A program made the translations under genes and the position numbers. Under the pieces are notes generated by a model that saw only the letters and a program-made list of their open reading frames with translations, had not been told where the DNA came from and made no database searches. From Liolophura sinensis (taxonomy: Eukaryota; Mollusca; Polyplacophora; Chitonida; Chitonidae), in assembly GCF_032854445.1 (NCBI RefSeq), contig NC_088307.1, positions 24,129,953 to 24,193,952 on the forward strand: a stretch of 64,000 nucleotides of DNA, in the 5' to 3' direction. Within the stretch, counting starts at the first letter, position 1, and each line of letters begins with the position of its first letter. Shown here piece by piece: positions 1-50,222 of this stretch.

Positions 1-153
1 ACTTTAATTCAAACATGGTTTTATTGGTCAAGGACTACATGTTGTCATCGTCTGGGAAAACCAGTTATAGCAGCTCTGCCAACAAATCTCTCCCCCACTG
101 CGCACCCCCATGCTCTCTGGATAGAGTATTTTATATCATTTCTGTGCTTTCAG

Positions 154-271
154 GTGTGAATACCGCAGATATCCTCACGGCTTACATATCCGCAATTAGA
201 GCCCTCAGAGTGCTGGACCCAGCAGGTGTCATCCTGGAACTGGTCTGTGAGCCTGTCAGGAAGTACCTCAG
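154..271 (+). CDS. ANAPC2: ANAPC2 exon a (first in window)
   Basis: Acceptor ...gtgctttcag before 154; donor ctcag/gtgagt after 271. It enters with two bases finishing a Gly codon and leaves after two bases of an Arg codon (AG), which the first base of the next exon (3810) completes as AGG. It encodes VNTADILTAY ... VCEPVRKYLR, helical cullin-repeat material just before the acidic linker. From about 191 onward the exon is the first unit of a 90-bp tandem array, so the donor used in vivo cannot be told from sequence alone. Confidence 0.9.
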
Positions 272-3200
272 GTGAGTCTGGTTGTCAGTTAACCTCAGAG
301 TGCTGGACCCAGCGGGTGTCATCCTGGAACTCGTCTGTGAGCCTGTCAGGAAGTACCTCAGGTGAGTCTGGTTGTCAGGTAACCTCAGAGTTCTGGTCCC
401 AGCAGGTGTCATTCTGGTACTGGCCTGTGAGGCTGTCAGGAAGTACCTCAGGCGAGTCTGGTTGTCAGGTAACCTGATGGTGCTGAACCACACAGGTGTC
501 ATCCTGGTACTGACCTGTGAGCCTGTCAGGAAGTACCTCAGGCGAGTCTGGTTGTCAGGTAACCTGATGGTGCTGAACCACACAGGTGTCATCCTGGTAC
601 TGGCCTGTGAGCCTGTCAGGAAGTACCTCAGGCGAGTCTGGTTGTCAGGTAACCTGAGGGTGCTGAACCCCACAGGTGTCATCCTGGTACTGGCCTGTGA
701 GCCTGTCAGGAAGTACCTCAGGTAGTCTGGTTGTCAGGTAACCTGAGGGTGCTGAACCCCACAGGTGTCATCCTGGTACTGGCCTGTGAGCCTGTTAGGT
801 TGTACCTCAGGCGAGTCTGGTTGTCAGGTAACCTGAGGGTGCTAAACCCCATAGGTGTCATTCTGGTACTGGCCTGTGAGCCTGTCAGGAAGTACCTCAG
901 GTGAGTCTGGTTGTCAGGTAACCTCAGAGTGCTGGACCCAGCGGGTGTCATCCTGGAACTCGTCTGTGAGCCTGTCAGGAAGTACCTCAGGTGAGTCTGG
1001 TTGTCAGGTAACCTCAGAGTTCTGGTCCCAGCAGGTGTCATTCTGGTACTGGCCTGTGAGGCTGTCAGGAAGTACCTCAGGCGAGTCTGGTTGTCAGGTA
1101 ACCTGAGGGTGCTGAACGACACAGGTGTCATCCTGGTACTGACCTGTGAGCCTGTCAGGAAGTACCTCAGGCGAGTCTGGTTGTCAGGTAACCTGATGGT
1201 GCTGAACCACACAGGTGTCATTCTGGTACTGGCCTGTGAGCCTGTCAGGAAGTACCTCAGGTGAGTCTGGTTGTCAGGTAACCTGAGGGTGCTGAACCCC
1301 ACAGGTGTCATCCTGGTACTGGCCTGTGAGCCTGTCAGGAAGTACCTCAGGTAGTCTGGTTGTCAGGTAACCTGAGGGTGCTGAACCCCACAGGTGTCAT
1401 CCTGGTACTGGCCTGTGAGCCTGTCAGGAAGTACCTCAGGGGAGTCTGGTTGTCAGGTAACCTCAGAGTTCTGGCCCCTTCTGGTGTTATCCTGGTACTG
1501 GCCTGTGAGCCTGTTAGGTAGTACCTCAGGTGAGTCTGGTTGTCAGGTAACCTCAGAGTTCTGGCCCCTTCTGGTGTCATCCTGGAACTGGTCTGTGAGG
1601 CTGTCAGGAAGTACCTCAGGTGAGTCTGGTTGTCAGGTAACCTGAGGGTGCTTAACGACACAGGTGTCATCCTGGTACTGGCCTGTGAGCCTGTTAGGTA
1701 GTACCTCAGGTGAGTCTGGTTGTCAGGTAACCTCAGATTGCTGAACCCCACAGGTGTCATCCTGGTACTGGTCTGTGAGCCTGTCAGGAAGTACCTCAGG
1801 TGAGTCTGGTTGTCAGGTAACCTCAGATTGCTGGACCCCACTGGTGTCATTCTGGTACTGGTCTGTGAGCCTGTCAGGAAGTACCTCAGGTGAGTCTGGT
1901 TGTCAGGTAACCTCAGATTGCTGAACCCCACAGGTGTCATCCTGGTACTGGTCTGTGAGCCTGTCAGGAAGTACCTCAGGTGAGTCTGGTTGTCAGGTAA
2001 CCTCAGATTGCTGGACCCCACTGGTGTCATCCTGGAACTGGTCTGTGAGCCTGTCAGGAAGTACCTCAGGTGAGTCTGGTTGTCAGGTAACCCCAGGATG
2101 CTGAACCCCACAGGTGTCATTCTGGTACTGGTCTGTGAGCCTGTCAGGAAGTACCTCAGATGAGTCTGGCTGAAACAGCTGAGAATGTTCATTACCAAAA
2201 AGTCTTCCTGGAGAAGTACATTTGTATATGCCCTGACTTGCATGATAAGCTGTTCACTACCAAAAAGTCTTCCTGGAGAAGTACATTTGTATATGCCCTG
2301 ACTTGCATGATAAGCTGTTCACTACCAAAAAGTCTTCCTGGAGAAGTACATTTGTATATGCCCTAACTTGCATGATAAGCTGTTCACTACCAAAAAGTCT
2401 TCCTGGAGAAGTACATTTGTATATGCCCTGACTTGCATGATAAGCTGTTCACTGCCAAAAAGTCTTCCTGGAGAAGTACATTTGTATATGCCCTGACTTG
2501 CATGATAAGCTGTTCACTACCAAAAAGTCTTTCTGGAGAAGTACATTTGTATATGCCCTGACTTGCATGATAAGCTGTTCACTACCAAAAAGTCTTCCTG
2601 GAGAAGTACATTTGTATATGCCCTGACTTGCATGATAAGCTGTTCACTACCAAAAAGTCTTCCCAGAGAAGTACATTTGTATATGCCCTGACTTGCATGA
2701 TAAGCTGTTCACTACCAAAAAGTCTTCCCAGAGAAGTACATTTGTATATGCCCTGACTTGCATGATAAGCTGTTCACTACCAAAAAGTCTTCCTGGAGAA
2801 GTACATTTGTATATGCCCTGACTTGCATGATAAGCTGTTCACTACCAAAAAGTCTTCCCAGAGAAGTACATTTGTATATGCCCTGACTTGCATGATAAGC
2901 TGTTCACTACCAAAAAGTCTTCCTGGAGAAGTACATTTGTATATGCCCTGACTTGCATGATAAGCTGTTCACTACCAAAAAGTCTTCCCAGAGAAGTACA
3001 TTTGTATATGCCCTGACTTGCATGATAAGCTGTTCACTACCAAAAAGTCTTCCTGGAGAAGTACATTTGTATATGCCCTGACTTGCATGATAAGCTGTTC
3101 ACTACCAAAAAGTCTTCCTGGAGAAGTACATTTGTATATGCCCTGACCCTGCATGATAAGCTGTTCACTACCAAAAAGTCTTCCTGGAGAAGTACATTTG

Positions 3201-6200
3201 TATGTGCCCTGTCTTGCATGATAAGCTGTTTTAAGAGTAGTAGAGTTTAAGATTGTTACTGGAGCCTTGATCCCAATGAGCAGTCAACAATTTCCTTTGG
3301 TTTTGTCTTCCTGGAGGTGTATTGGAGGCCCATTCAATATGATATACAACATAAGGCTTGATCTGAGATAACGTGCGTCACACATAGTTTGTCATGTTCT
3401 TCCTATAGCTTGCCGACATCGTTTTCCTCCAACTACGATTAGCGATTTTATAATGCGGTTAATGAATACAGCATTTCACTTGAATAACTGTATTTCACCT
3501 ACAGTCTGGTACATAAAAATACATGTTCAGAAGCAGCTAAAGCCTTAAAATGATCCGAAAACTTAAGTTTTACTGAAAGAAAAACTAATAAAACGTCACC
3601 GAAAACTGTTAAGTGGACCTATCAAAAGTGTAGGAATCAAACAGAATCAAACAAAATGTGTCACTTGGAACATGCTAAACTTAAGGTGAACTAGAGTGAT
3701 CAGTCAATCAGTTAACCCTGTATGGCCTGTCCTTTCTGAAAACCCATACAGAGATGCATGTACACTTTATGAATGAGTAAATTACGTATATGATCTGAAC
3801 GTTGTTTAGGTCTCGCTCGGACACGGTGAGATGCGTGGTGTCTAGTTTAACTGACGAAGGGAATAATGAGCTGTCTGATGAGCTTGTTAAGGGTCAGCCC
3901 CTGGTACTAGAGGACACGAGTAACAGTGATGATGAGGGGGAGGACTGGGAGAGCTGGATGCCTGACCCTGTGGATGCTGACAGTGGTGAGTATAGGGGAT
4001 GACCTCATCTGTAAAATGGGAGGAAGGGAAGGGGCTGTGGTCTAGTGCTAGAGGACAGGAGTAACAGTGATGATGAGGGGGAGGACTGGGAGAGCTGGAT
4101 GCCTGACCCTGTGGATGCTGACAGTGGTGAGTATAGGGGATGACCTCATCTGTAGAATGGGAGGAGGGGGAGGGGCTGTGGTCTAGTGATAGAGGACAGG
4201 AGTAACAGTGATGATGAGGGGGAGGACTGGGAGAGCTGGATGCCTGACCCTGTGGATGCTGACAGTGGTGAGTATAGGGGATGACCTCATCTGTAGAATG
4301 GGAGGAGGGGGAGGGGCTGTGGTCTTGTGCTAGAGGACAGGAGTAACAGTGATGATGAGGGGGAGGACTGGGAGAGCTGGATGCCTGACCCTGTGGATGC
4401 TGACAGTGGTGAGTATAGGAGATAACCTCACCTGTAGAATGGGAGGAGGGGGAGGGGTTGTGGTCTAGTGCTAGAGGACAGGAGTAACAGTGGTGATGAG
4501 GGGGAGGACTGGGAGAGCTGGATGCCTGACCCTGTGGATGCTGACAGTGGTGAGTATAGGGGATGACCTCATCTGTAGAATGGGAGGAGGGGGAGGGGCT
4601 GTGGTCTAGTGCTAGAGGACAGGAGTAACAGTGGTGATGAGGGGAGGACTGGGAGAGCTGGATGCCTGACCCTGTGGATGCTGACAGTGGTGAGTATAGG
4701 GGATAACCTCACCTGTAGAATGGGAGGAGGGGGAGGGGTTGTGGTCTAGTGCTAGAGGACACAAGTAACAGTGGTGATGAGGGGGAGGACTGGGAGAGCT
4801 GAATGCCTCACCCTATGGATGCTGACAGTGGTGAGTATAGGGGATAACCTCACCTGTAGAATGGGAGGAGGGGGAGGGGTTGTGGTCTAGTGCTAGAGGA
4901 CACAAGTAACAGTGGTGATGAGGGGGAGGACTGGGAGAGCTGAATGCCTCACCCTATGGATGCTGATGGTGGTTAGTATAGGAGATAACCTCACCTGTAG
5001 AATGGGAGGAGGGGGAGGGGTTGTGGTCTAGTGCTAGAGGACAGGAGTAACAGTGATGATGAGGCGGAGGACTGGGAAATCTGGATGCCTGACCCTGTGG
5101 ATTCTGACAGTGGTGAGTATAGGAGATAACCTCACCTGTAGAATGGGAGGAAGGGGAGGGGCTGTGGTCTAGTGCTAGAGGACAGGAGTAACAGTGGTGA
5201 TGAGGGGGAGGACTGGGAGAGCTGGATGCCTGACCCTTTGGATGCTGATGATGGTTAGTATAGGAGATAACCTCACCTGTGGAATGGGAGGAGGGGGAGG
5301 GGCTGTGGTCTAGTGCTAGAGGACAGGAGTAACAGTGGTGATGAGGGGGAGGACTGGGAGAGCTGGATGCCTGACCCTGTGGATGCTGACAGTGGTAATT
5401 ACCTGGAGATGTTTGTAAACTCCACCAAGCAGAATTTAGAGCCTTGCAAAATGTCATACTGTGTGTCCAGTGGCCTGTTCTTTAAAATTGTTCCAATTTT
5501 TTTTTACAGGACAACTTTCCTGTACTCTTGATGTCTGTGAAATCCAATCGCAGAGTTTGTATAGGGCCTTGGAAATCATGAAAAGCCTGGAAAATTAGGG
5601 GATTTTGTAGTTCAACTTTAAAACGACTTGACATTGAGACTACAGAACCAACCCAGGCAACTGTTCATAGTATCCTGACATTCTATTGGGAGAAATGTGT
5701 TCTCGAACAATTATCAAATTGCTTAGTATGCTAATTCGTAGAAGTGAAACAGAGTTAAATGAATTGAAATCATTTTACATTGCTCTAAGTGAGGATAAGT
5801 GTAGAATGTTTGTTGCAAGTTGCCAGGAAAATGTGAATTTTGGACCTGGAGAAGTCTTGAGAAAGTCAGGAAATACGCTTGATGTGTACCAACCTGTGGA
5901 TGTATTTCTATTGCATGGCATGTATCCAGACATCTTCTATCTCTGCACTGTAAACAAGCTCAGATGGATACAAACCAACACACCAAGCAAATTCACTAAG
6001 CAAAAAATATCTCTGGAGTTAGGGTATGTCTGAAGGTTTGCTCTTGCAACAGTGGAGTGGACCTCAGCTAATGAGATTGCAGGATCAAGTCCAGTGCAGG
6101 GAAATGCAGTTTAGTATGGATTTATGTTTTCTCCAGTAAGTTCATGGATCTTAGATGATAAATAATTTTGATGAATTGGTAGGGTTGTTTTAGGCTGGCC

Positions 6201-9200
6201 TAATCATTTCCTTACAGGAAAAGAAAGCGTAAAAAAGGGTGCAAATTTCAGCTTAATGAGCATGAAAAGTTGATGTGTACAAGTTGTCTTGAGTATTTTT
6301 TTTCCAGTTGTTCTTTAAAGAGAAAAGGACATTTGTAAATAATTTTTGTGAGGTAACTATACCTTTTGGTATATATTGCCATGAGTAATAATCTTTTTAA
6401 TAAGAATAAAACAAAAGTATGATTAAAATTCTGGTTGAACACCATTTTTAGGTTAAAAGATCAGATTTTAACCGCAAAGAAATTTATTACACAAGCCTTT
6501 CGCATCCTCACTTGGAACATAATTATACTCAGAAAATATATGCTCAGAGTTGGTTCCCAGATTCCCACTTTTACAAAAATAATTTTCAAATGCCCTTTTC
6601 TCTTTAAAGAAAAACTAAAAAGAAAACATTGAAGGCCATATTTGCAATAACTTTTCACACTCCTTTTATCTGAAGTATACACGATTTGTACGGTTTGCGC
6701 CGTACCACCTTATCCATTCCAGCTGACGCGTCCAAAAGTCATCGTGCCTCTGACATCATTAGCATGCTTGTGAATATCTATGGTAGCAAAGAGCTGTTTG
6801 TGAACGAGTACCGCACGCTCCTGGCCGACCGCATCCTGACGCAGTTCAACTACGAGACCGGGCGAGAAATTCGTTACCTGGAACTCCTCAAGTTGATGTT
6901 TGGAGACGCTCAGCTGCATTACTGCGAGGTGATGCTCAAGGATGTGGCTGATTCTCGGCGTATCAACGGACACATAACGGAGGAGAGGAAGAAACTCAAA
7001 CAGACAGATGAGGTATGTTAAGATTGGCGAGTCTACCGTGTAAGATTGTCTGAGATTGTCTAAGATTGACCACAGTAGTTATGGAAGTGTTATCAATGAT
7101 CCAAAGAAAAGGTCAGTTTGCAGTGAAATTTAGTGACAAACTTTGTCAGTGGTCGTCTTGGAAAGGACTCGCAATGCTGCGTTATGCGCATTTGCCGTAG
7201 TGACATATGTCTTCACAATGTGACGCCATGGGCGTTACACCAGGTGTACCTTACTGCTTCGTAAGAGGGGCTCCTGGCTATGGTTATTTATTTTATTTAT
7301 TTATTTGATTGATGTTTTACTTTCAAGACTATTTGAATTCAGGGGTTGAAATAACGCCTGTCTACCTGTCGGCGACAGGTCACTAAAAATTCACACGGCC
7401 TCTGACATTATAAGGTAGGCTTAATAAGTTTACAATCACATGTAAGTCAATATCCATACATGCCTATGTTTGTGAAGTTTGTATATTTTCTTGGCGTTCC
7501 TATAGTCAAATTGCTATTGCACTGGGTTAAGATGTCATTTAGTGGATTGGGCAGTCATCAATGAACGCTATCAATTCTGAGATCAGATGTACCTTCAACA
7601 TAGAAGAATGCGCGCTGGTTATCACAGCAGTGGCAAAATTAGATCTGCAAGAAGCACTTTTAATTTTTTCGCAAGGGTCCACAGCTATGACGAAACAAAC
7701 AGCATCAACAAGTGCCAGTCAACCTGAACTTGAACACAGTCAGCCTAAAGCAGGGAATTTATCAAAAATTGAAGTGTCATGCACGACTCAGGAGTCTCTC
7801 ACCATCGCATTTGTAATCGGTACGAGTTGCTGGGCACCATCACATAAATTAGATCTTCTTGAGTATAGCGTGAAACACCAGTCAGTTAATAAATAATAAA
7901 ATGTAAAGTTAATATTTATAGTCCTGCCCTCTTCCTATCCCCCAAAAGGGTACAGCTTTAGGGCAGCATTGCTAACTTTTCTAACTTGAGGACTGCGTGT
8001 GGGGTAAAGGGGAGCAACTCAAGACACACAAACATATATTAGCACACACAGACTGAATGCATTTTCTTGAAGGGGAAACGCATGGGTACACAAGTACGGA
8101 CTGAACTCCCGCATGTAAGTTTTGTTTTGAAGATCGACTGTGCAGAAGTCCCAGTCTCAACAGAAAATTGAATAAAAAGGAAAATGCAACTGAAACCAAA
8201 TATTCTTGTAACACGTTCAACTAATATTGTTTTACCAAGGTGGCAATGTTGACGGAAAATAATTTGGCCAAACTGAAATTATGTGTTCACAAAGCGCAAC
8301 AATGGCCATCTATAGTATTAGCACAGATTCTAGACTTTCTGAAAGTCAGACTGATGGGGACAGGTAGATACCTGTAGGTGACGGGTACAAAAAAAATCTA
8401 CATGTCTCTGTGACAGGCGGTTTTAAAAAAACATTTCTACCCCTGCACTTGTACTGTGGCAGCCAGCATTATGGTGGGAGGAACTGGCTAATGTTTGTGT
8501 GTGACATGTCAAAGGGATCTTGATCAAAGTTGTCCAGGAAGGTCCAGTGAGCCATGAATTTTACTGAGTCATTTTACCAGAGGTTATGTCAGAAATGTCA
8601 TATTTATTTGCTTTAAATTTGATATCAGCCCAGGTGGGTACCACGCCAGCATGGCACAATGACCCAATAACCAATGCAGTTGTTGTGACTTCCTCTCCAC
8701 CGGTACGTGAGAAAGTCTGCCTTGCAACCGTCCTGGGGATGGTCGTGGGTTTCCCCTGGGCTCTGCCCAATTTCCTCCCACTAAAAAGCTGGTCTCCGTC
8801 ATATAAATGAAATATATCTTGAGTACCGGTACAGTGTAAAAAACCAATCAAATAAATAAATCAATCATTCAGTCCATGACTGTCGGGTTCTACAGTACGT
8901 ATGTGTCCCACCCACAGGTTGGGGTGAATGCAATGATCCTGTCGGCTCAGTTCTGGCCATCATTCCGTGAGGAGAAGATAACTCTGCCCGCTGAGTTGCA
9001 GCAGGGACTGGAGGAGTACACCAAGCAGTATGAGGCTCTGAAGGGGAATCGTACTCTTTCCTGGAAACCTCACCTGGGTGAGATTTTATGATTCTCTATT
9101 TGCTGGTGTGGGTCTTAAATAACATACTTTTTATTTATTTATTTATTTATTTATTTGTAGTTCTTAACATGTAGAACAATTATAGAAAAACTTGGTTTTA

Positions 9201-12200
9201 CATCATTGGGGCCAAACATTATGAGGTTTGTTTAGAAATCCTATCGTGTAATTGAAACATTTAGTGGTGTGAAAAGAACATCTAGAACTCGTAGCCTAAC
9301 CGTTGATTTTACAAGTCTAAAAGGAAATACACACATCTCAGGTTATCGGTTGTTTGTAAGTGACCTAAAATTTCTCCCATGATTAAGTTGTGCAGGTCAG
9401 AGCTCTGTTGATCAGAGAAAGGTGTTTTGGGCTTTTTTGGAAGATAGGGTGATTTCCCACTAGAAATTCTAACACTAAAATATTATTTTACAACATTTAT
9501 TTGCCTCTATAATTAAACTTTTGGGGCAAAATTTTAGGTCATTTACGTTTAAACTGTGTTAGGGGGACTGTTGCATAGACGAGGGGGTTAGCATGGCAGG
9601 GCAGAGTAATGACCCAGGAGCCTCCCACTATTGTGGTCCCCATGAGTTCAAGTCTAGCTCATGCTGGCTTCCTCTTCAGCAGTTCGTGGGAAGCTCTGCC
9701 CCCCCAACCTGCAAATGGTCGTGGGTTTCACACAGTCTCTGCCAGGTTTTCTCCCACCATAATGCTGGCCGCTGTCATTTAAGTGAAATATTCTTCAGTA
9801 GAGCGAAAAAAGTAATCATATAAATAAATAAACTTTAGGCGATACTCTTGCAGCAGCCTGTGTGAATTTGTAGGGAAAAAATTCATAATTGACATTGGAG
9901 GTGTGTTGAATTCCACACTTAGAATTTTTAAAAATTCTTCCAGGATTGTTGAGTATAGACATTGAGCTGAAGGACAGAACTCTCAACTTTACAGTGTCCC
10001 CTCTTCATGCTGCTATCATCATGCAGTTCCAAAACCAAGGTATGTAAACAATGTGGGTGCTACCTTCATCTACCTGATGTGTAAACATGCAGCATTGATG
10101 TGGATATTTATTAAAGCAGAGACTTGGAAATAATGGGAAATTTAAGTAAAAACAGACGTAAATTTGGGATCGCAGATGACCCTCATGAAGTAATTAGCCC
10201 GTATTTAAACTTTAGATGTCAAAAGTTGGACTCACCAACTTACCAACAGAGCAGCATAAATTGTCACTGGTAAAAATAATGGAAACTTGTCAATTTGATA
10301 CCTACATGACAAACCGATAAATAAATTATGCTAGCAAAATAAAGTTTTAAATCTTAAAATTTTGGTTTCATTCTGCATAGTTCGATGGAGTGTGGAAGCT
10401 TTGAGTGGTGTTCTCCAGACTCCAGTGTCAGCATTGCGCCGGAAAATCACCTACTGGCAGAGCCAGGGATTACTAAGGGAGGAAACTCCGGATGTCTTTG
10501 TCCTGATAGAGGAGCACAAGGGACCTCAGCAGGAAGTTATCTTGGCAGATGAAGAAGAGACAGAGTCTGCAATGGCATCTGCACATGCTCAGCGAGAAGA
10601 ACAGTTCCAGGTAGAGATTGTTGTGAAAATACATGCATATCAAAAGTGTGAAAATTGTCTGAAAAATAATTTATTTGGTCTCAGGATCAGGAATCTACTT
10701 TAAACTTAAGACAGACTTGGCTTTATCTCTAAAACACTTTACTGCATTAATATTGTGACCTACCTTAGTAGTTATTATTTTAATACTTAATTGTTGTCTT
10801 AGACACAAGTGACAAAATTGAAAAGTAGGGTTTAACTTCAAATACGTTCAGGAATAATAAGTTAAGACTAACTCAAGAAGATACAGGAGGCTACAATGAT
10901 GGATACTTATGAGTGGTCAAGTACTGGTCAGTCAAGTGTCAGTTGTCAGTGACTGAGTGGGGCTTCATGCCTGGGTGGGACTTCATGCCTGGGTGGGGCT
11001 TCATGCCTGGGTGGGACTTCATGCCAGGGTGGGGCTTCAGGCCTGAGCTGGACTTCATTCCTGTGCTGGACTTCATGCCGGGGTGGGACTTCCTTCCTGA
11101 GTGGGGCTTCATGCCTGGGTGGGGCTTCATGCCTGGGAGGGACTTCATTCCTGGGTGGGGCATCATGCCTGGGTGGGGCTTCATGCCTGAGTGGTACTTC
11201 ATGCCAGGGTGGGACTTCATGCCTGAGTGGGGCTTCAGGCCTGAGCTGGACTTCAGGCCTGTGCTGGATTTCTTGCCTGAGCTGGACTTCATGCCTGGGA
11301 GGGGCTTCTTTCCTGAGTGGGGCTTCATGCCTAGGTGGGGCTTCATGCTTGGGTAGGGTATCATGCTTGGGTGGGGCTTCACGCCTGGGTAGGACATCAT
11401 GCCTGGGTAATGCATCGTGCATGGGGTTTAATGCCAGGGTGGAGTTTCCTGCCTGAGTGGGCTTCATGCCAGGGTGGGGTTTCATGCCTGAGTGGGGCTT
11501 CATGCCTTGGTGAGGCGTCATGCCTGGTCGCTTCAGCATTAATGCAAGCCAGTTGTATAGTTATTCCTCCATTTGGACTGATTAAAGGACAACACAGCAC
11601 CTGGCTAAAACATATTTCATTCAAAAGCAGGATGGTCAAGCTTTCTAAAAAGTATCACACTTTATTATTTTAATGAGATTTCACCGAATAGCATGTAGAA
11701 CAAAATGACAATGCTGCACAAATGGCTGGTGTGAATCGAGGCAACCATCTTGAGAATTTTATCCAATCAGGTTTCCGTGGCACAGGCTGTGACCTATGAT
11801 TCACCCATTCACTCCATGAAGTGACTTATCGAAACACACAACTACTCTATAAGACATCGTTTTGGAGATCGTTTACAATGATTTATTTACGTGCAGCCGA
11901 AGGGCCATTTCACACAGTGGTCTGTACCATTTTTGGACCACCACAGACATAAAATAAGTTGATTTACAAGATGTGGTAATATTCAATGACGGTATCGCAA
12001 ATTAGGTCAGACAGTAGCATACCATCTCGGCCCAAAACGCATTCCTCTCCCGAAGAGACCTCAAATTATGCAAATATACTTTTTGTCGTTCATGTTAGCG
12101 TATAGTCAGCACGCAGTTGCTAAATAACAAATGTCAGAGTCAGTTAAAACTTCATTAGGCGATGCTGAAGGTTTATGGGAATGAGAACTTCATTCATGAG

Positions 12201-13903
12201 ACGAGACGTACATCTTCTCATCGAAAAATGCTTTAAATCTTATAATAGTTTTTCTCTTTGAATTTATTAGAAGTGAAGAATTTAGATTTTGCCCTTTGTC
12301 TTTCTCCCATATAAGGTTTTTTTCTGTTCTCTCTGCTGTTTATCAAATACAATAAAATTATTGAAACACCGTCTATAAGCTGAGGTGCTTTCTCTGTCGT
12401 CCGCGATAACTAGGTCAGCACTGCTCTCATTTTAGAAGCCGCCGCTACAAAGTTGAAGCATAATGTCCAGCGACAGTCGAATGCCTAGATCAGCCTCAGT
12501 GGTGCTTGGATTTATTTCCAGAATTGAACATGAATCCAGTTGTACAACAACCCAATTGTAACTCTGTAAATATTTAATCAGATTCAAAATCACCATCACA
12601 ACCCCTTTGAACCAGAAATACCTAGGCTGTGCTTCTGCTGGCTGCTCAGAAACTGTATAAATGAACAGTTTAAGCAGAGGAAGAAATATCCTTCCAGTAT
12701 GTTTAGTTTCCGAGAAAACTATTTATCACTTGGCCCTTTATAACTGAAGTCTACAATTTTATCTGCCATATGGTACTGCTTAGACTGTTACACGGGAAAT
12801 AACTTTGACGTTAGAGAACTAAAGTTAATTTGACGTCACCTTGCTGTCGATAATGGAGACATGATGAAGCTGTGAAAAGACGAAGTTTCACTGAACTTTT
12901 ACTGGGTTGAAAAAAATCTTAAAAAAATATTTAATGCTGGTTTAAGATACTGTGAACGGTAGTCTTTCAGCGGACATTAGTCAGGTGCTGTCTTTCACTT
13001 GAAAGAAAAAAGCTGCAGTGATATCTCCTATAATACCCCAGTGGAGCCTCTATGGCTTAGAGCTTAGCGTGTTAGAGTAGCACAGTAACTCAAGAACCTC
13101 TCACCAATGTGATCGCTGTGAGTTCAAGTCCACCTCATGCTGGCGTTCTGTCTGGTCATTCTTGGGAAGGTCAGCCAGCAGATTTCAACCCGGTTTCCTC
13201 CCACCGTATTGCTGGCTGTCGTTGTACAAGTTAACTATTTTTGAGTATGGTGTAAAACAGCAATCAGATAAATAAATAAACTGTGTCACATTATGTTGCC
13301 TTTAACACTCACAAAATACTTGTCAACCTATCGTCAGTACTCTAGGTGGGGCTTCAGTGTGCATACATGTAGTTAGTTTACCATTTGGACTGGTTGGAGA
13401 CAACAAGTACAATGATGACCCTTACAATACCCCAAGGGGGCTTCCGGGCCTAGTGGTTGGTGTGTTAGATCGGTACAATGCTTTCTTCCTTTTTATTTAT
13501 TCCTTTCTTTCCGCCTAAACTCTGCTCGGTTTTTCTCTAATCATAATGCTCTCCGTCGTCATATAGGTCAAGTATTCCAAAGTACGGCATAAAACACCCA
13601 ATCAAACAAAAAAATCAACCTCTTTCTGTCATAGAAGTGAAATACTCTGAATAATAAAACTATAAACTTTATTGACCCAAATCTTTGTTTTAAATGCAGG
13701 TGTTCTGGTCATACATCATCGGCATGTTAACCTCCTTGGAGAGTTTAACCCTGGAGAGGATTCACAGCGTTCTGAACATGTTCGCCATGCAGGGACCAAC
13801 CACCACAGAGTTCACGCTGGCGGAACTCAAGGCCTTTCTCGACAGGAAGGTCAAGGATCAACAGCTCATCTCATCCAATGGAATTTACAGACTCGCGAAA
13901 TAA
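154..13903 (+). CDS. ANAPC2: ANAPC2, C-terminal half (anaphase-promoting complex subunit 2), 7 exons
   Basis: Cullin-like scaffold subunit of the APC/C ubiquitin ligase, which with the RING subunit ANAPC11 catalyses ubiquitin transfer to cell-cycle proteins. Exons seen: 154-271, 3810-3985, 6723-7012, 8918-9077, 9944-10039, 10381-10610, 13700-13903. All junctions are GT-AG and every phase matches, giving 424 codons including the TAA stop. Recognisable blocks: VCEPVRKYLR, then SDTVRCVVSSLTDEG, an acidic stretch ending PDPVDADS, the cullin-homology core (SDIISMLVNIYGSKELFVNE; MLKDVADSRRINGHI), FWPSFREEK, RTLSWKPHLG, and the C-terminal winged-helix domain (VFWSYIIGML ... KVKDQQLISSNGIYRL). The animal protein is about 820 residues, so the N-terminal half lies upstream of this window. 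Two exons seed tandem arrays (see those entries). Family assignment is from remembered homologues; no search was run. Confidence 0.95.
191..2160 (+). repeat. 90-bp tandem array (22 units) seeded by the 3' end of an ANAPC2 exon
   Basis: The unit runs from the middle of exon 154-271 (LRVLDPAGVILELVCEPVRKYLR-coding) through its splice donor and a short intronic piece (gagtctggttgtcaggtaac). Junctions recur about every 90 bp from 271 to 2160. By eye, the position equivalent to the donor reads GTGAGT in 12 units, GCGAGT in 6, GTAGTC in 2 (one-base deletion), GGGAGT in 1 (near 1440), and is destroyed (GATGAG) in the last. Only the first unit is joined to the exon's real acceptor. A seven-unit block is itself duplicated (offset 629 bp). 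Reading frames stay open for long stretches on both strands only because 90 is divisible by three. Confidence 0.95.
2191..3235 (+). repeat. 65-bp tandem array, about 16 units, intronic
   Basis: The unit reads about ccaaaaagtcttcctgg, agaagtacatttgtatatg, ccctgacttgcatgataagc, tgttcacta. It begins directly after the 90-bp array, inside the same ANAPC2 intron. Units are nearly identical; a cctgg/cccag variant alternates between 2640 and 3060, suggesting duplication by dimers. No coding relationship is visible and the period is not a multiple of three. Confidence 0.95.
3236..3809 (+). other. ANAPC2 intron, non-repetitive part
   Basis: AT-rich intron between the 65-bp array and the acceptor at 3808-3809 (gttgtttag). 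It holds a short dispersed repeat (about 3540-3690, 'aatcaaacaaaatgtgtcacttgg') also seen near 23400-23470 and, inverted, near 15710-15790. No gene seen. Confidence 0.6.
3810..3985 (+). CDS. ANAPC2: ANAPC2 exon b (acidic linker)
   Basis: Acceptor gttgtttag before 3810, donor cagtg/gtgagt after 3985. One base completes the Arg codon from exon a; one base (G) is left and becomes GCT (Ala) with exon c. It encodes SRSDTVRCVVSSLTDEG, then a Ser/Asp/Glu-rich stretch and the conserved DPVDAD. Its 3' two thirds form unit 1 of the 141-bp array that follows. Confidence 0.9.
3895..5400 (+). repeat. 141-bp tandem array (11 units) seeded by the next ANAPC2 exon
   Basis: The unit spans the acidic-linker coding part of exon 3810-3985 (SNSDDEGEDWESWMPDPVDA-like), its donor gtgagt and about 55 bp of intron (atgacctcatctgtagaatg, then gggaggagggggaggggctg). 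The ggatgctgacagtgg element recurs from 3971 to 5380, ten periods of about 141 bp. Most units keep the gtgagt donor; two have lost it (tgatggtggttag near 4967, tgatgatggttag near 5250) and the last reads gtaatt. Downstream units show frame-neutral changes and a few indels, with no acceptor of their own. Confidence 0.95.
5401..6286 (+). other. ANAPC2 intron
   Basis: Intronic sequence after the 141-bp array. It contains a 115-codon open frame (5686-6033) with no recognised similarity and AT-rich codon use, which I treat as chance. A tRNA-like B-box-type stretch near 6085-6100 (gcaggatcaagtcc) may be an old SINE remnant. Confidence 0.4.
6287..6632. repeat. Imperfect inverted repeat (hairpin-type element) in ANAPC2 intron
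   Basis: Arms at about 6287-6353 and 6560-6632 are imperfect reverse complements around the core ctttaaagagaaaaggacat / atgcccttttctctttaaag, separated by about 200 bp. This fits a MITE-like fold-back. No target-site duplication was identified. Confidence 0.6.
6723..7012 (+). CDS. ANAPC2: ANAPC2 exon c (cullin-homology core)
   Basis: Acceptor tccattccag before 6723, donor gatgag/gtatgt after 7012. Phase 1 in, phase 0 out. It encodes SDIISMLVNIYGSKELF, LLADRILTQFNYETGRE, LELLKLMFGDAQLHYCEVML and KDVADSRRIN, the best conserved part of the family. Confidence 0.97.
7013..8604 (+). other. ANAPC2 intron
   Basis: Holds SINE tails: an inverted fragment near 7280-7340 (tttatttgattgatgtttta) and a + fragment near 7855-7905. 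A 111-codon open frame at 7561-7896 runs into the second tail and has no recognised relatives. Two 'acctgt(cg/ag)g..gacagg' segments near 7365 and 8350 resemble each other. No gene. Confidence 0.5.
8605..8862 (+). mobile_element. SINE (family A), diverged
   Basis: Related to the full-length copy at 61583-61854: 'gcatggcacaatgacccaataaccaatgc' head portion, 'gggtttcccctgggctctgc' middle and 'caatcaaataaataaatcaa' tail. It lies in the ANAPC2 intron just before exon 8918. Confidence 0.75.
8918..9077 (+). CDS. ANAPC2: ANAPC2 exon d
   Basis: Acceptor cccacccacag before 8918, donor cctgg/gtgaga after 9077. Phase 0 in, phase 1 out. It encodes VNAMILSAQFWPSFREEKIT through TKQYEALKGNRTLSWKPHLG; the FWP and RTLSWK motifs are typical of APC2 and related cullins. 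Confidence 0.95.
9562..9836 (+). mobile_element. SINE (family A), diverged
   Basis: Contains 'gagtaatgacccaggagcct', 'gagttcaagtctagctcatg', 'ctgccaggttttctcccacc' and an 'aataaataaac' tail, colinear with the full copy at 61583. Located in the ANAPC2 intron. Confidence 0.8.
9944..10039 (+). CDS. ANAPC2: ANAPC2 exon e
   Basis: Acceptor attcttccag before 9944, donor caag/gtatgt after 10039. Phase 1 in and out. It encodes LLSIDIELKDRTLNFTVSPL then HAAIIMQFQNQ, matching the beta-rich segment before the winged helix of APC2. Confidence 0.93.
10381..10610 (+). CDS. ANAPC2: ANAPC2 exon f
   Basis: Acceptor ttctgcatag before 10381, donor ttccag/gtagag after 10610. Phase 1 in, phase 0 out. It encodes RWSVEALSGVLQTPVSALRR, then WQSQGLLREETPDVFVLIEE and an acidic loop, equivalent to the first winged-helix-like part of the C-terminus. 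Confidence 0.95.
10946..11540. repeat. 18-bp tandem array (minisatellite) in ANAPC2 intron
   Basis: About 33 units of the type ggcttcatgcctgggtgg, with many point variants and a few indels. Because 18 is a multiple of three, long open frames exist on both strands (hexapeptide GFMPGW on +, KPHPGM on -). No splice context supports translation. Confidence 0.95.
11541..13034 (+). other. ANAPC2 intron, unique sequence
   Basis: No recognised gene, repeat or element was found; AT-rich intronic sequence between the 18-bp array and SINE copies. Confidence 0.5.
13035..13283 (+). mobile_element. SINE (family A), diverged but near full length
   Basis: tRNA-like head 'ggagcctctatggcttagag', then 'tgagttcaagtccacctcat', 'cccggtttcctcccaccgta' and the tail 'caatcagataaataaataaa'. 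Located in the ANAPC2 intron. Confidence 0.8.
13430..13615 (+). mobile_element. SINE (family A), internally deleted
   Basis: Head 'gggggcttccgggcctagtg' followed, after a gap, by the 3' body 'ctctccgtcgtcatataggt' and 'aaaacacccaatcaaacaaa'. Second SINE in tandem within the last ANAPC2 intron. Confidence 0.7.
13700..13903 (+). CDS. ANAPC2: ANAPC2 terminal exon (winged-helix C-terminus)
   Basis: Acceptor ttaaatgcag before 13700; stop TAA at 13901-13903. It encodes the ANAPC2 C-terminal domain, VFWSYIIGMLTSLESLTLER through KVKDQQLISSNGIYRLAK. In homologues this segment packs on the catalytic module with ANAPC11. Confidence 0.97.
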   Translation: MFWSYIIGMLTSLESLTLERIHSVLNMFAMQGPTTTEFTLAELKAFLDRKVKDQQLISSNGIYRLAK

Positions 13904-24500: not shown

Positions 24501-25947
24501 ATGTAGCCAGGAAAGTGTGAATATTAAGTCTTTAAAAGCCTGGAAAATTGAAATCTTTCAAGTGCACATTGAGCCCTTTTACACTGTCATAGTAACAGCT
24601 AGAATCTGTGTCTTTAATTACAGCATAATGTCAGGGGTGTGGTTTCCATGGCGAACAACGGGCCAGACAGCAACGGATCACAGTTTTTCATCACTCTCTC
24701 CAAACAGCAGCACCTGGACATGAAGTACACTGTGCTTGGCAAGTAAGTGGATGTCTAACTGGACACTAAACCTTCTGACTTTTGGGACACCTAGTCTGCT
24801 CTGTTTTGCCATTATTCGTGGAACTGTAGCAGGAATATTTAGTTTCTGTTTTTTTTTTTTTCACATGGCTAGTCCATCTAATGAACTGAATATTCATATC
24901 TTTACGTTTAAAAAAAACTGGGAGAGAAATGTAATTCTTTGCTTTCAGCACTACTAGTATCTGTCCTAAAAATTAGAAGCATTGGGGTATGAAACAAGAC
25001 AACAATATACATTATACTTTACCATCTTTATTTATTGCCATCTAGGCCACACAAACAAGAAACGGACGAAATAATATTATTCAGATTCCACGGCCAATGA
25101 CAGGATTGAACCCTCATCTTGGTTAGGACTTGAGCATCTTAACCAGTGAGCCACTGGCCATTCTTAGTATTAGATTTTCAGTGTAAAAGACATAACATTG
25201 CTGACAAAAGATGCCTCCAGATATCCTTTTTGTAGGTATTTATCATACAAAAATGATCGAAGAACAAGGACGGTTTATTCCTCATATAGATGCATATATG
25301 TAAATAAGATTAAGGATACATTGGATGTATGTAATTCTTTATTTTACTGACATATATCACACTGATATGAACATGTTTATCCAGTAGTTTTTTAACTTGA
25401 TGGTAAAACTTGATGAATAGACAACAGCCATTAAGAGTTAAAGGGTTAGCTTTGTGTTTTAATTCAGAGTTTTAAACTTCATTAATCATGCTGGCTTCTT
25501 CTCCGGCCGTAAGCGGGAAGGTCTGCCAGCAACCTGCGGATGGTCGTGGGTTTCCCCCGGGCTCTGGCCGGTTTCCTCCCACCATAATGCTGGCCGCCAT
25601 TGTATAAATGAAATATTCTTTACACAGTTAAACACCAATCAAATAATTAAATAAATAATAAACGTTATTAAAGTGATTAAGGTATGTACATGTGGATCAT
25701 TACTCTTCACAGTGAAAGATTTCTTCATTTTGCTATAGATATAAAAAATATATCAAAAGTCTGAATATCTGCATTAAATAATGAAATTTGTTTTTTTCAA
25801 ATTTGGCCTTTTTCTTGCAGGGTAATTGATGGCTTTGACACACTAGAGGAAATAGAGAAGGCCCAAGTGAATGAGAAAAATTACAGACCTCTGACAGAAC
25901 TGAGGATACAGAGTGTGACGATTCACGCAAACCCGTTGGCTGGCTAA
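18500..25947 (+). CDS. PPIL3: PPIL3, peptidyl-prolyl cis-trans isomerase-like 3, complete, 6 coding exons
   Basis: Cyclophilin-type prolyl isomerase associated with the spliceosome. Coding exons: 18500-18502 (ATG only), 21989-22063, 22848-22941, 23762-23829, 24624-24742, 25821-25947. All junctions are GT-AG with matching phases; the sum is 161 codons plus stop, exactly the length of vertebrate PPIL3. N-terminus: [19 protein letters not shown]. Active-site region [14 protein letters not shown] gives Arg44, Phe49, Met50 and Gln52; SQFFITL follows at 99-105. The position of CypA Trp121 is His110 ([11 protein letters not shown]), as in PPIL3 relatives. C-terminus: [15 protein letters not shown]. 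The last exon seeds a 72-bp tandem array. Confidence 0.95.
18503..21988 (+). other. PPIL3 intron 1
   Basis: 3.5 kb, AT-rich. A dispersed repeat at about 21240-21345 ('gcaattaacatcactgaata', 'aagccatggtgctaggggca') recurs near 30600-30760, 41160-41280, 55290-55400 and 60140-60320. A poly-A/AT stretch lies near 21785-21825. No other gene is recognised. Confidence 0.5.
21989..22063 (+). CDS. PPIL3: PPIL3 coding exon 2
   Basis: Acceptor cttttacag, donor tgtgag/gtatct; phase 0 both ends; 25 codons [20 protein letters not shown] then PKACE, the first two cyclophilin strands. Confidence 0.95.
22086..22425 (+). mobile_element. SINE-like repeat (family C)
   Basis: tRNA-like head 'ggcctaatggttagatcgtt', B-box-like 'gatcgaacccgggttgggtc', body 'gtgtcagtataatgtgactg', 'catgatgcttcagtggccgc', then a 'gcatacatacatacata' tail. 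The best-preserved family C copy; in PPIL3 intron 2. Confidence 0.8.
22848..22941 (+). CDS. PPIL3: PPIL3 coding exon 3 (active-site motif)
   Basis: Acceptor ccccatcag after a C/T-rich tract, donor cacag/gtaaat; phase 0 in, 1 out. It encodes [20 protein letters not shown] then [12 protein letters not shown], with the cyclophilin residues Arg, Phe, Met and Gln. Confidence 0.97.
23762..23829 (+). CDS. PPIL3: PPIL3 coding exon 4
   Basis: Acceptor atgtcccag, donor taaag/gtatgt; phase 1 in, 0 out. It encodes [18 protein letters not shown] then RDGLK. Confidence 0.96.
24315..24465 (+). repeat. Dispersed repeat copy 1
   Basis: 'gatctgagtatgttattcat ... gagcagaccaggtgtcccaa ... ttagaagaaatagtgta' is similar to 53665-53810 on the same strand. 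Unclassified; in PPIL3 intron 4. Confidence 0.7.
24624..24742 (+). CDS. PPIL3: PPIL3 coding exon 5
   Basis: Acceptor tttaattacag, donor ggcaa/gtaagt; phase 0 in, 2 out. It encodes [39 protein letters not shown]. Confidence 0.97.
25485..25662 (+). mobile_element. SINE (family A), 5'-truncated
   Basis: Begins at 'catgctggcttcttctccgg' and continues colinear with the full copy through 'cccgggctctggccggtttc', ending 'caatcaaataattaaataaa'. In the last PPIL3 intron. Confidence 0.8.
25821..25947 (+). CDS. PPIL3: PPIL3 terminal exon
   Basis: Acceptor tttcttgcag; one base completes Lys120; stop TAA 25945-25947. It encodes [41 protein letters not shown]. The 3' part of the exon is the first unit of the 72-bp array. 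Confidence 0.97.
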
Positions 25948-26625
25948 AAGGATTAGACTTCTGACAGAACTGAGGATACAGACTGTGACGATTCACGCAA
26001 ACCCTTTGGCTGGCTGAGAGGATTACAGACTTCTGACAGAACTGAGGATACAGTCTGTGACGATTCACGCAAACCCTTTGGCTGGCTGAGAGGATTACAG
26101 ACTTCTAACAGAACTGAGGATACAGTCTGTGACGATTCACACAAACTCGTTGACTGGCTGAGAGGATTACAGACTTCTGACAGAACTGAGGATACAGTCT
26201 GTGACGATTCACGCATACTCATTGACTGGCTAAGAGGATTACAGACTTCTGACAGAACTGAGGATACAGTCTGTGACGATTCACACATACTCATTGACTG
26301 GCTGAGAGGATTACAGACTTCTGACAGAACTGAGGATACAGACTGTGACGATTCACGCAAACCTGTTGGCTGGCTGAGAGGATTACAGACTTCTGACAGA
26401 CTGAAGGTACAGACTCAGTCAATTCACACAAATACTGTCAGCTGGCTGAGAGGATTACAGACTTCTGACAGAACTGAGCATACGAACTGTGATGATTCAC
26501 ACAAACCAGTTAGCAGGCGGAGAGGATTACAGACTTCTGATAGAACTGAGGATACGAACTGTGATGATTCATGCAAACCCGTTAGCTGGCTTAGAGAATT
26601 TGAATTCACGCCAACAGGTTAGCTC
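25885..26625 (+). repeat. 72-bp tandem array (about ten units) seeded by the last PPIL3 exon
   Basis: Unit 1 is the coding end (CCTCTGACAGAACTGAGGAT through ATTCACGCAAACCCGTTGGC and the stop). Copies of 'acttctgacagaactgagg' start at 25957, 26029, 26101 and 26173, exactly 72 bp apart, and degenerate after about 26390. Unit 1 has TAA at the stop; later units mostly have ggcTGA. No splice acceptor lies inside, so the array would sit in the 3' UTR. Confidence 0.95.
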
Positions 26626-49576: not shown

Positions 49577-49800
49577 GGCCTCTCTCGGTGGTTATAGAAC
49601 GGAGTGGTTCTTTAGGCTATTAGAGTTAGCGATATAGCACTTTAACTGCTGATTCTCATCACAGTTTTTTTTAACTTAGTACTGTGTAACGCATAGCAGT
49701 TCGCCCCGTTTGAATTATTCCCAGTGTGGGTTATTTATACTGAGCACTTTGTAACTGTACTGATATTGTACATGACTATTTTCCGTGCTCTCATTGTGTT

Positions 49801-50222
49801 CGTCCTGCTGTGGACTTACGTGTGCTCTTATTTGCCTTTACCAGCCCCGCTAGCACAGTTGGTAGAGCGCCCGCTTCGGAAGCGGTAGATCCAGGATCAA
49901 TCCTGGGTCGAGTCACACCTGAGACGTTAAAAGAGGAAGTTGCAGCTTCCTCGCTTGGCGTTCAGCATAAAGGGGATAGTGCAACGACTGGTTGACCCGT
50001 ATCAGTATAATCGTCCTGCTGTGGACTTACGTGTGCTCTTATTTGCCTTTACCAGCCCCGCTAGCACAGTTGGTAGAGCGCCCGCTTCGGAAGCGGTAGA
50101 TCCAGGATCAATCCTGGGTCGAGTCACACCTGAGACGTTAAAAGAGGAAGTTGCAGCTTCCTCGCTTGGCGTTCAGCATAAAGGGGATAGTGCAACGACT
50201 GGTTGACCCGTATCAGTATAAT
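49801..50222 (+). repeat. 211-bp direct tandem duplication carrying a tRNA-derived SINE head (family B)
   Basis: 49801-50011 and 50012-50222 are virtually identical. Each contains ccgctagcacagttggtaga (A-box-like), ggatcaatcctgggtcgagt (B-box-like), then aagaggaagttgcagcttcc and gtgcaacgactggttgaccc. The SINE 3' body (gtcgtatgactga...) is missing from both. Confidence 0.9.

Follow-up and report, generated by a model that had tools for sequence, protein, structure and literature searches.

Minisatellite arrays carrying exon ends and splice donors in the ANAPC2 gene of a chiton and elsewhere in its genome

Exons and tandem arrays of the window

The window, i.e. the whole stretch of 64,000 nucleotides of Liolophura sinensis analysed here (C13:24129953-24193952), is taken from an assembly of 609,464,459 bases in 632 contigs that was searched in full. 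It carries exons of the essential gene ANAPC2, which extends at least from position 6292 of the stretch lying upstream (L009) to position 13903 of the window. The features that concern us are the following.

154–271, plus strand: ANAPC2 exon a, preceded by the acceptor ctttcag and ending in phase 2 (CTC AG|G); 203–271 is the repeated part
203–2169, plus strand: array 1, 22 units of 90 bp (TRF and unit alignment)
272–277, plus strand: GTGAGT, first donor of exon a, in unit 1 (donor scan)
2186–3230, plus strand: array 2, an intronic minisatellite of 65 bp x 16 (TRF), directly after array 1 and between arrays 1 and 3
3810–3985, plus strand: ANAPC2 exon b, ending in phase 1 (GAC AGT G|CT) (phmmer, tblastn and splice scan)
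3907–5396, plus strand: array 3, 11 units of 141 bp (TRF, unit alignment and donor scan)
6723–7012, plus strand: ANAPC2 exon c
8918–9077, plus strand: ANAPC2 exon d
9944–10039, plus strand: ANAPC2 exon e
10381–10610, plus strand: ANAPC2 exon f
13700–13903, plus strand: ANAPC2 exon g
25821–25947, plus strand: terminal coding exon of a PPIL3-like cyclophilin, stop codon TAA at 25945–25947 (PDB phmmer, E 7.4e-12 to PPIL3)
25880–26600, plus strand: array founded on the PPIL3-like exon, 72 bp x 10, including the exon end with its stop codon (TRF)

Exons a and b, once joined, match the APC2 chains of the PDB with a phmmer E-value of 2.8e-28, and the start of exon b at 3810 completes the split codon left by exon a (AG|G TCT, by eye). 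The positions of exons c to g come from tblastn with a human ANAPC2 probe, each exon being open by eye and provided with splice-site scores; the phases of the ANAPC2 exon junctions are consistent (by eye). Scored with acceptor and donor matrices, the acceptor of exon a reaches 10.2 and its donor CAG|GTGAGT 12.5 of a possible 12.7 bits, while the real acceptor of exon b scores 0.7. Searching exons a to c against the whole assembly returned 32 matches, mostly array units, all within C13 24130108-24136964; ANAPC2 was found once, and no second copy of exon a outside its locus was recovered by this whole-assembly search.

TRF describes array 1 with a period of 90, 21.9 copies, 92% matches and a score of 3003. 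Its unit joins the last 69 nt of exon a to 21 nt comprising the donor and the beginning of the intron, unit 1 being made of exon positions 203–271 and intron positions 272–292. Splitting the array at its donors yields 22 units separated by 21 spacings, 19 of 90 nt and two of 89 nt. As a minisatellite, array 1 was founded by a unit crossing an exon–intron boundary: unit 1 is the working exon end, and the further copies occupy the intron downstream of it. The original prediction, that the end of an ANAPC2 exon had founded a 22-unit array, is borne out by the TRF limits, the donor-anchored units and the PDB match. It had also stated that the copies bear usable donors; usable-looking donors are present, CAG|GTGAGT in 12 of the 22 units and the GC donor CAG|GCGAGT in six, the others being CAG|GTAGTC, which has lost one nucleotide, in two units, CAGGGGAGT in one and CAGATGAGT in one, the last. 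The prediction was incomplete, both exon b and the PPIL3-like terminal exon having founded arrays of their own. The unit of array 3 is unrelated to that of array 1 and has the same build, the 3′ end of exon b followed by donor and intron, with GTG|GTGAGT kept in eight of 11 units.

Units 2 to 6 of array 1 recur seven units later as units 9 to 13 with only 1, 0, 2, 2 and 0 differences, respectively, from which we infer an expansion by ordinary unequal exchange or slippage; units 7 and 14 show four differences. Among units 2–22 pairwise differences reach 16 of 90 nt. The last unit is no more diverged than units 15–17, and unit 1 is more diverged mainly in its left flank. A search of the 609 Mb that skipped very common words did not find the unit elsewhere. 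Such an array could in principle reflect a collapsed or falsely expanded repeat, given that it is represented by a single assembled copy and that the published Liolophura japonica assembly, built from PacBio HiFi reads of 8,347 bp on average, reports a coverage of only 14x (PMC11068029). However, the 5.2 kb occupied by arrays 1 to 3 fit within a mean read of 8.3 kb, and the genome holds many similar arrays with unrelated units. The read length, the divergence of the units and the single occurrence of the exon in the assembly make an artefact very unlikely.

The copies might also be read as alternative exons arising by tandem exon duplication, or as an intron gained through a duplicated AGGT site. 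The units do hold an acceptor-like tgtcag|GAAG followed after 12 nt by the donor, the use of which would insert KYLR in frame (by eye), and the best eight of these sites in array 1 score 3.3 to 5.1 with the acceptor matrix, above the 0.7 of the real exon b acceptor. Their pyrimidine tracts are nevertheless poor, and array 1 starts 49 nt inside exon a, at 203 as compared with 154, so that the exon's own acceptor is absent from the unit. Tandem exon duplication, which requires the whole exon with its acceptor in the unit, was rejected on these coordinates, and we regard this family of explanations as very improbable.

Three further observations were made around these features. Another ANAPC2 intron, lying in the upstream stretch before the exon at L009:8685, contains at L009:7365-8196 a degenerate array of 23–29 bp with acceptor-like units (TTTCCTCCAGGTTGTACTCATGG). 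On the minus strand, open frames of 162 aa or more cross the donor arrays at 182–2318 and 3887–5481 (183, 214, 323, 273 and 175 aa); their length is helped by array units divisible by three. Finally, positions 49800–50222 hold a 211-bp tandem duplication (TRF, 100% match) with a tRNA-like sequence that matches the Rfam tRNA family at 35.8 bits and is not called by ARAGORN.

Fate of the repeated donors

If the first donor of exon a is skipped, an in-frame TGA is read at 273–275 (from ...CTC AG|G), in agreement with the original prediction that any later donor truncates the protein. With such a donor, exon a would grow by about 90 nt for each unit included and translation would stop one codon further on; occasional transcripts of this kind would presumably be removed by nonsense-mediated decay. 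Exon definition and the order of transcription favour the first of several donors. Accordingly worded for ANAPC2, the spliceosome would use the first donor, which gives the shortest exon and is transcribed first, and would excise the other copies, the donor at 272 being most likely the one used as judged from the sequence. Since everything past the first donor is intron, arrays would survive there: they would be tolerated as long as exon, frame and donor are preserved in the first copy, the other copies becoming intron. We therefore speak of decoys in a putative sense, and consider it likely that ordinary expansion founded the arrays, that the first donor is spliced and that the decoys are neutral passengers. 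On the other hand, where identical 5′ splice sites are duplicated, the intron-proximal one may be preferred; on that view the last donors would be spliced and the gene would lose its function, which counts against neutral passengers.

The ANAPC2 decoys themselves look neutral because they are conserved no better than the rest of their unit. In array 1, 53% of the units retain the donor 9-mer unchanged, the mean over all 90 windows being 62%; in array 3 the corresponding figures are 71% and 78%. Distributed by codon position, the variable columns of array 1 number 7, 8 and 10 of 23 each (Fisher p 0.43) and the minority letters 29, 27 and 50, leaning to third positions, and 13 of 31 alleles are synonymous where 28% are expected; the third-position lean and the synonymous share are a weak hint of coding constraint. 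The decoys are neither kept nor purged, and nothing clear speaks for selection on them in either direction.

Donor conservation was assessed in eight arrays, namely arrays 1 and 3 and six others described below. Retention exceeds the window mean in three of the eight (0.93 against 0.55 in L032, 0.94 against 0.77 in L021 and 0.83 against 0.78 in L035), which counts against the reading as neutral passengers, L032 and L035 having been picked for their intact donors and L021 not. It about equals the mean in L041 (0.59 and 0.59) and in L047 (0.49 and 0.51, scored with a variant of the donor), and lies below it in L031 (0.78 against 0.87).

These figures bear on a functional explanation, according to which the 12 and eight strong U1-binding sites of arrays 1 and 3 guard a long intron from premature polyadenylation, or a regulated poison isoform, with an extended exon and the in-frame TGA, tunes the dose of ANAPC2. 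Consistent with it, the donors of 8 bits or more within positions 1–7100 all fall in arrays 1 and 3 or at real exon ends, except those at 154 and 3826, each downstream donor of array 1 leads to the same immediate stop, and donors are very well kept in L032 and L021. However, donor conservation in arrays 1 and 3 falls slightly short of the window mean, and CAG|GTGAGT is lost in ten of the 22 units of array 1. A strong donor is missing from array 2, where the best one of the unit reaches 4.1 bits, and a unit donor of 9 bits or more was found in only three of 32 arrays examined, as compared with 1.2 expected by shuffling. In this count only the best-scoring of any overlapping TRF rows was kept, so that some arrays were hidden by long-period rows with few copies (none was obtained from L009), and the match in array 3 is an antisense site and not the exon b donor. 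We consider a function of this kind improbable, and retain neutral passengers of ordinary expansion as the preferred reading.

Donor arrays throughout the genome

Pairs of the donor 9-mer, CAGGTRAGT-N(66-96)-CAGGTRAGT, i.e. 75–105 bp apart, occur 2459 times in the whole genome (1068 + 1391), as compared with 348 (222 + 126) for the reversed pattern at the same spacing; with N(97-127) the counts are 1933 (877 + 1056) and 307. The near-miss donor CAGGTRGAT forms 602 pairs genome-wide, a figure for pairs only and not per site. Since single sites number 19,904 for the donor 9-mer and 7,580 for its reverse, pairs per site amount to 12.4% and 4.6%, a ratio of 2.7 relative to a 9-mer of the same letters (2.4 for the more widely spaced pairs). 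As real donors make up only part of the 19,904 sites, their own excess is probably larger. With an excess of 2.7-fold per site, chance alone does not account for where arrays are founded or kept, a point against the neutral-passenger reading. Junctions may be favoured as founding sites or may retain arrays better, or genes and arrays may be unevenly distributed. Acceptors are over-represented as well, pairs of the acceptor-side pattern TTTTGCAGG numbering 77 as compared with 18 for the reversed control and stemming from few clusters, and we therefore make no claim that donors alone are affected.

Among the pairs listed, at least 19 donor arrays lie on contig C1 between 0.47 and 5.48 Mb, with minus-strand matches listed only to 4.54 Mb; the near-miss pairs listed, which reach 89.8 Mb of C1, comprise at least 16 arrays, of which three lie below 5.48 Mb. 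If the proportion of 19 arrays to 100 listed places held for all 2459 pairs, the 75–105-bp spacing would account for about 470 arrays, a rough extrapolation given that the start of C1 is denser than average. Donor-containing arrays thus probably number some hundreds in this genome, and the structure is confined neither to ANAPC2 nor to one of its exons. In a random sample of 20 stretches of 10 kb from C1 and C6 (L010–L029), 26 arrays with a period of 20 or more and four copies or more cover 8.9% of the sequence, so that minisatellites are abundant in this genome. The genome paper, by contrast, gives 0.08% for its class "other" (simple repeat, microsatellite, RNA) and 14.04% for unclassified repeats (PMC11068029).

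The 5′ edges of the 19 C1 arrays, in donor orientation, were examined, the edge of L043 not being reached. Five of the 19 adjoin there an exon confirmed by homology:

L032: CIAO3-type iron hydrogenase domain exon (Pfam 3.1e-13)
L035: SUFU exon (Pfam 1.2e-9, PDB 1.5e-14)
L041: BTAF1/Mot1-like SNF2 exon (Pfam 7.7e-6, PDB 1.6e-17)
L047: prominin exon (Pfam 6.1e-9)
L048: alpha-L-fucosidase exon (Pfam 5.9e-4, below the curated cut-off; PDB 2.5e-11)

The gene names CIAO3 and BTAF1 are those we take to apply. In four of these five cases the TRF array starts 21 to 52 nt inside the exon and extends downstream; that of L048 begins close to the donor, and its unit contains no more than about ten exon bases. 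Six of the 19 (L031, L034, L037, L040, L045 and L046) combine an acceptor-like site with a frame open as far as the first donor and gave no convincing family match, L045 having a weak PPR-like one (E 0.0015 to 0.0065); the acceptor-like-site test behind this group is not sharp, as it misses the acceptors of the confirmed exons of L035 and L048. Eight arrays belong to neither group. Scanning 76 ORFs at 18 of the 19 edges recovered the five confirmed exons and a flavin reductase match (3.7e-11), which is absent from the 30 ORFs rescanned; three weak matches, all from one ORF of the L033 array, were taken as chance. At 48 array edges of the random 200-kb sample (139 of 166 ORFs) two kinase members, one ankyrin, one SART-1 and repeat-like matches were obtained. 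Some random arrays too lie beside coding ORFs, which says nothing on whether an exon end is inside the unit.

Individual arrays show further features. The CIAO3-type array (C1:5471572-5475176) has a 40-bp unit with donor pairs across about 3.6 kb and keeps its donor in 93% of the units examined. The array at L021:1-717 (from C6:11000001), of 48 bp x 14, carries AAG|GTAAGG in nearly every unit and begins in an open frame, and looks like another exon-founded donor array; its exon stretch gave no family match, and the whole array ORF only weak, unrelated-looking ones. In L039 (C1:2759000-2761500) an exon-like stretch, for which no family match was found, lies between a 5′ acceptor-type array (112 bp x 13), the unit of which resembles an acceptor with an exon start (by eye), and a 3′ donor-type array.

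It is possible, though we hold it rather doubtful, that the minisatellites of this genome arise preferentially at exon–intron junctions, through a seeding linked to splicing or transcription, e.g. by R-loops or by pairing of nascent RNA at 5′ splice sites. If so, a few percent of the strongest donors, by a rough estimate, would carry arrays of identical decoys and would constitute a natural, genome-wide test of how the spliceosome chooses among identical 5′ splice sites. Tandem identical donors have been studied mostly in artificial constructs. Here, consensus donors repeated identically in natural arrays, probably hundreds of them, follow normal exons, essential genes included. Junction counts would reveal directly whether first, last or mixed donors are used, and the public genome comes with RNA-seq from five tissues (PMC11068029).

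Relation to amphioxus mirages and other systems

Minisatellite-like tandem duplications of exon–intron boundaries have been described in amphioxus under the name of mirages, in Adh3, the globins BflGb6 and BflGb9, troponin C and PGBD5 (PMC3087553, PMC3902484). According to these reports they occur at 5′ and 3′ boundaries, keep AG/GT signals in many units, differ in length between haplotypes and leave splicing apparently undisturbed (PMC3087553, PMC3902484). The ANAPC2 arrays resemble them in several respects: the units of arrays 1 and 3 cross the exon–intron boundary with an exon 3′ end, donor and intron, many but not all of them keep their splice signals (GTGAGT in 12 of 22 and eight of 11), and an intact exon adjoins an array containing near-identical units. 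They differ in that the host is a mollusc and not a cephalochordate, in that up to 22 units are present in ANAPC2 and in that two consecutive exons of one gene are hit. Whereas few amphioxus genes are named in the reports cited (PMC3087553, PMC3902484), the chiton arrays are probably hundreds. A word search of the literature, covering few subscription journals, brought up nothing on arrays of this kind in molluscs or on a genome-wide scale. The chiton arrays suggest that mirages are not peculiar to amphioxus but occur in a mollusc, apparently at the scale of the genome.

A second comparison is with intron gain by tandem genomic duplication, where the duplication of an AGGT-containing segment creates new potential splice sites (PMC3443670). 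The chiton arrays likewise duplicate a segment with a splice site and create potential splice sites, and provide material for this model; unlike it, an existing exon end is amplified in ANAPC2 and no new intron is shown. With the other minisatellites of this genome the ANAPC2 arrays share tandem expansion, and are set apart from them by a founding unit that includes coding sequence and a consensus donor.
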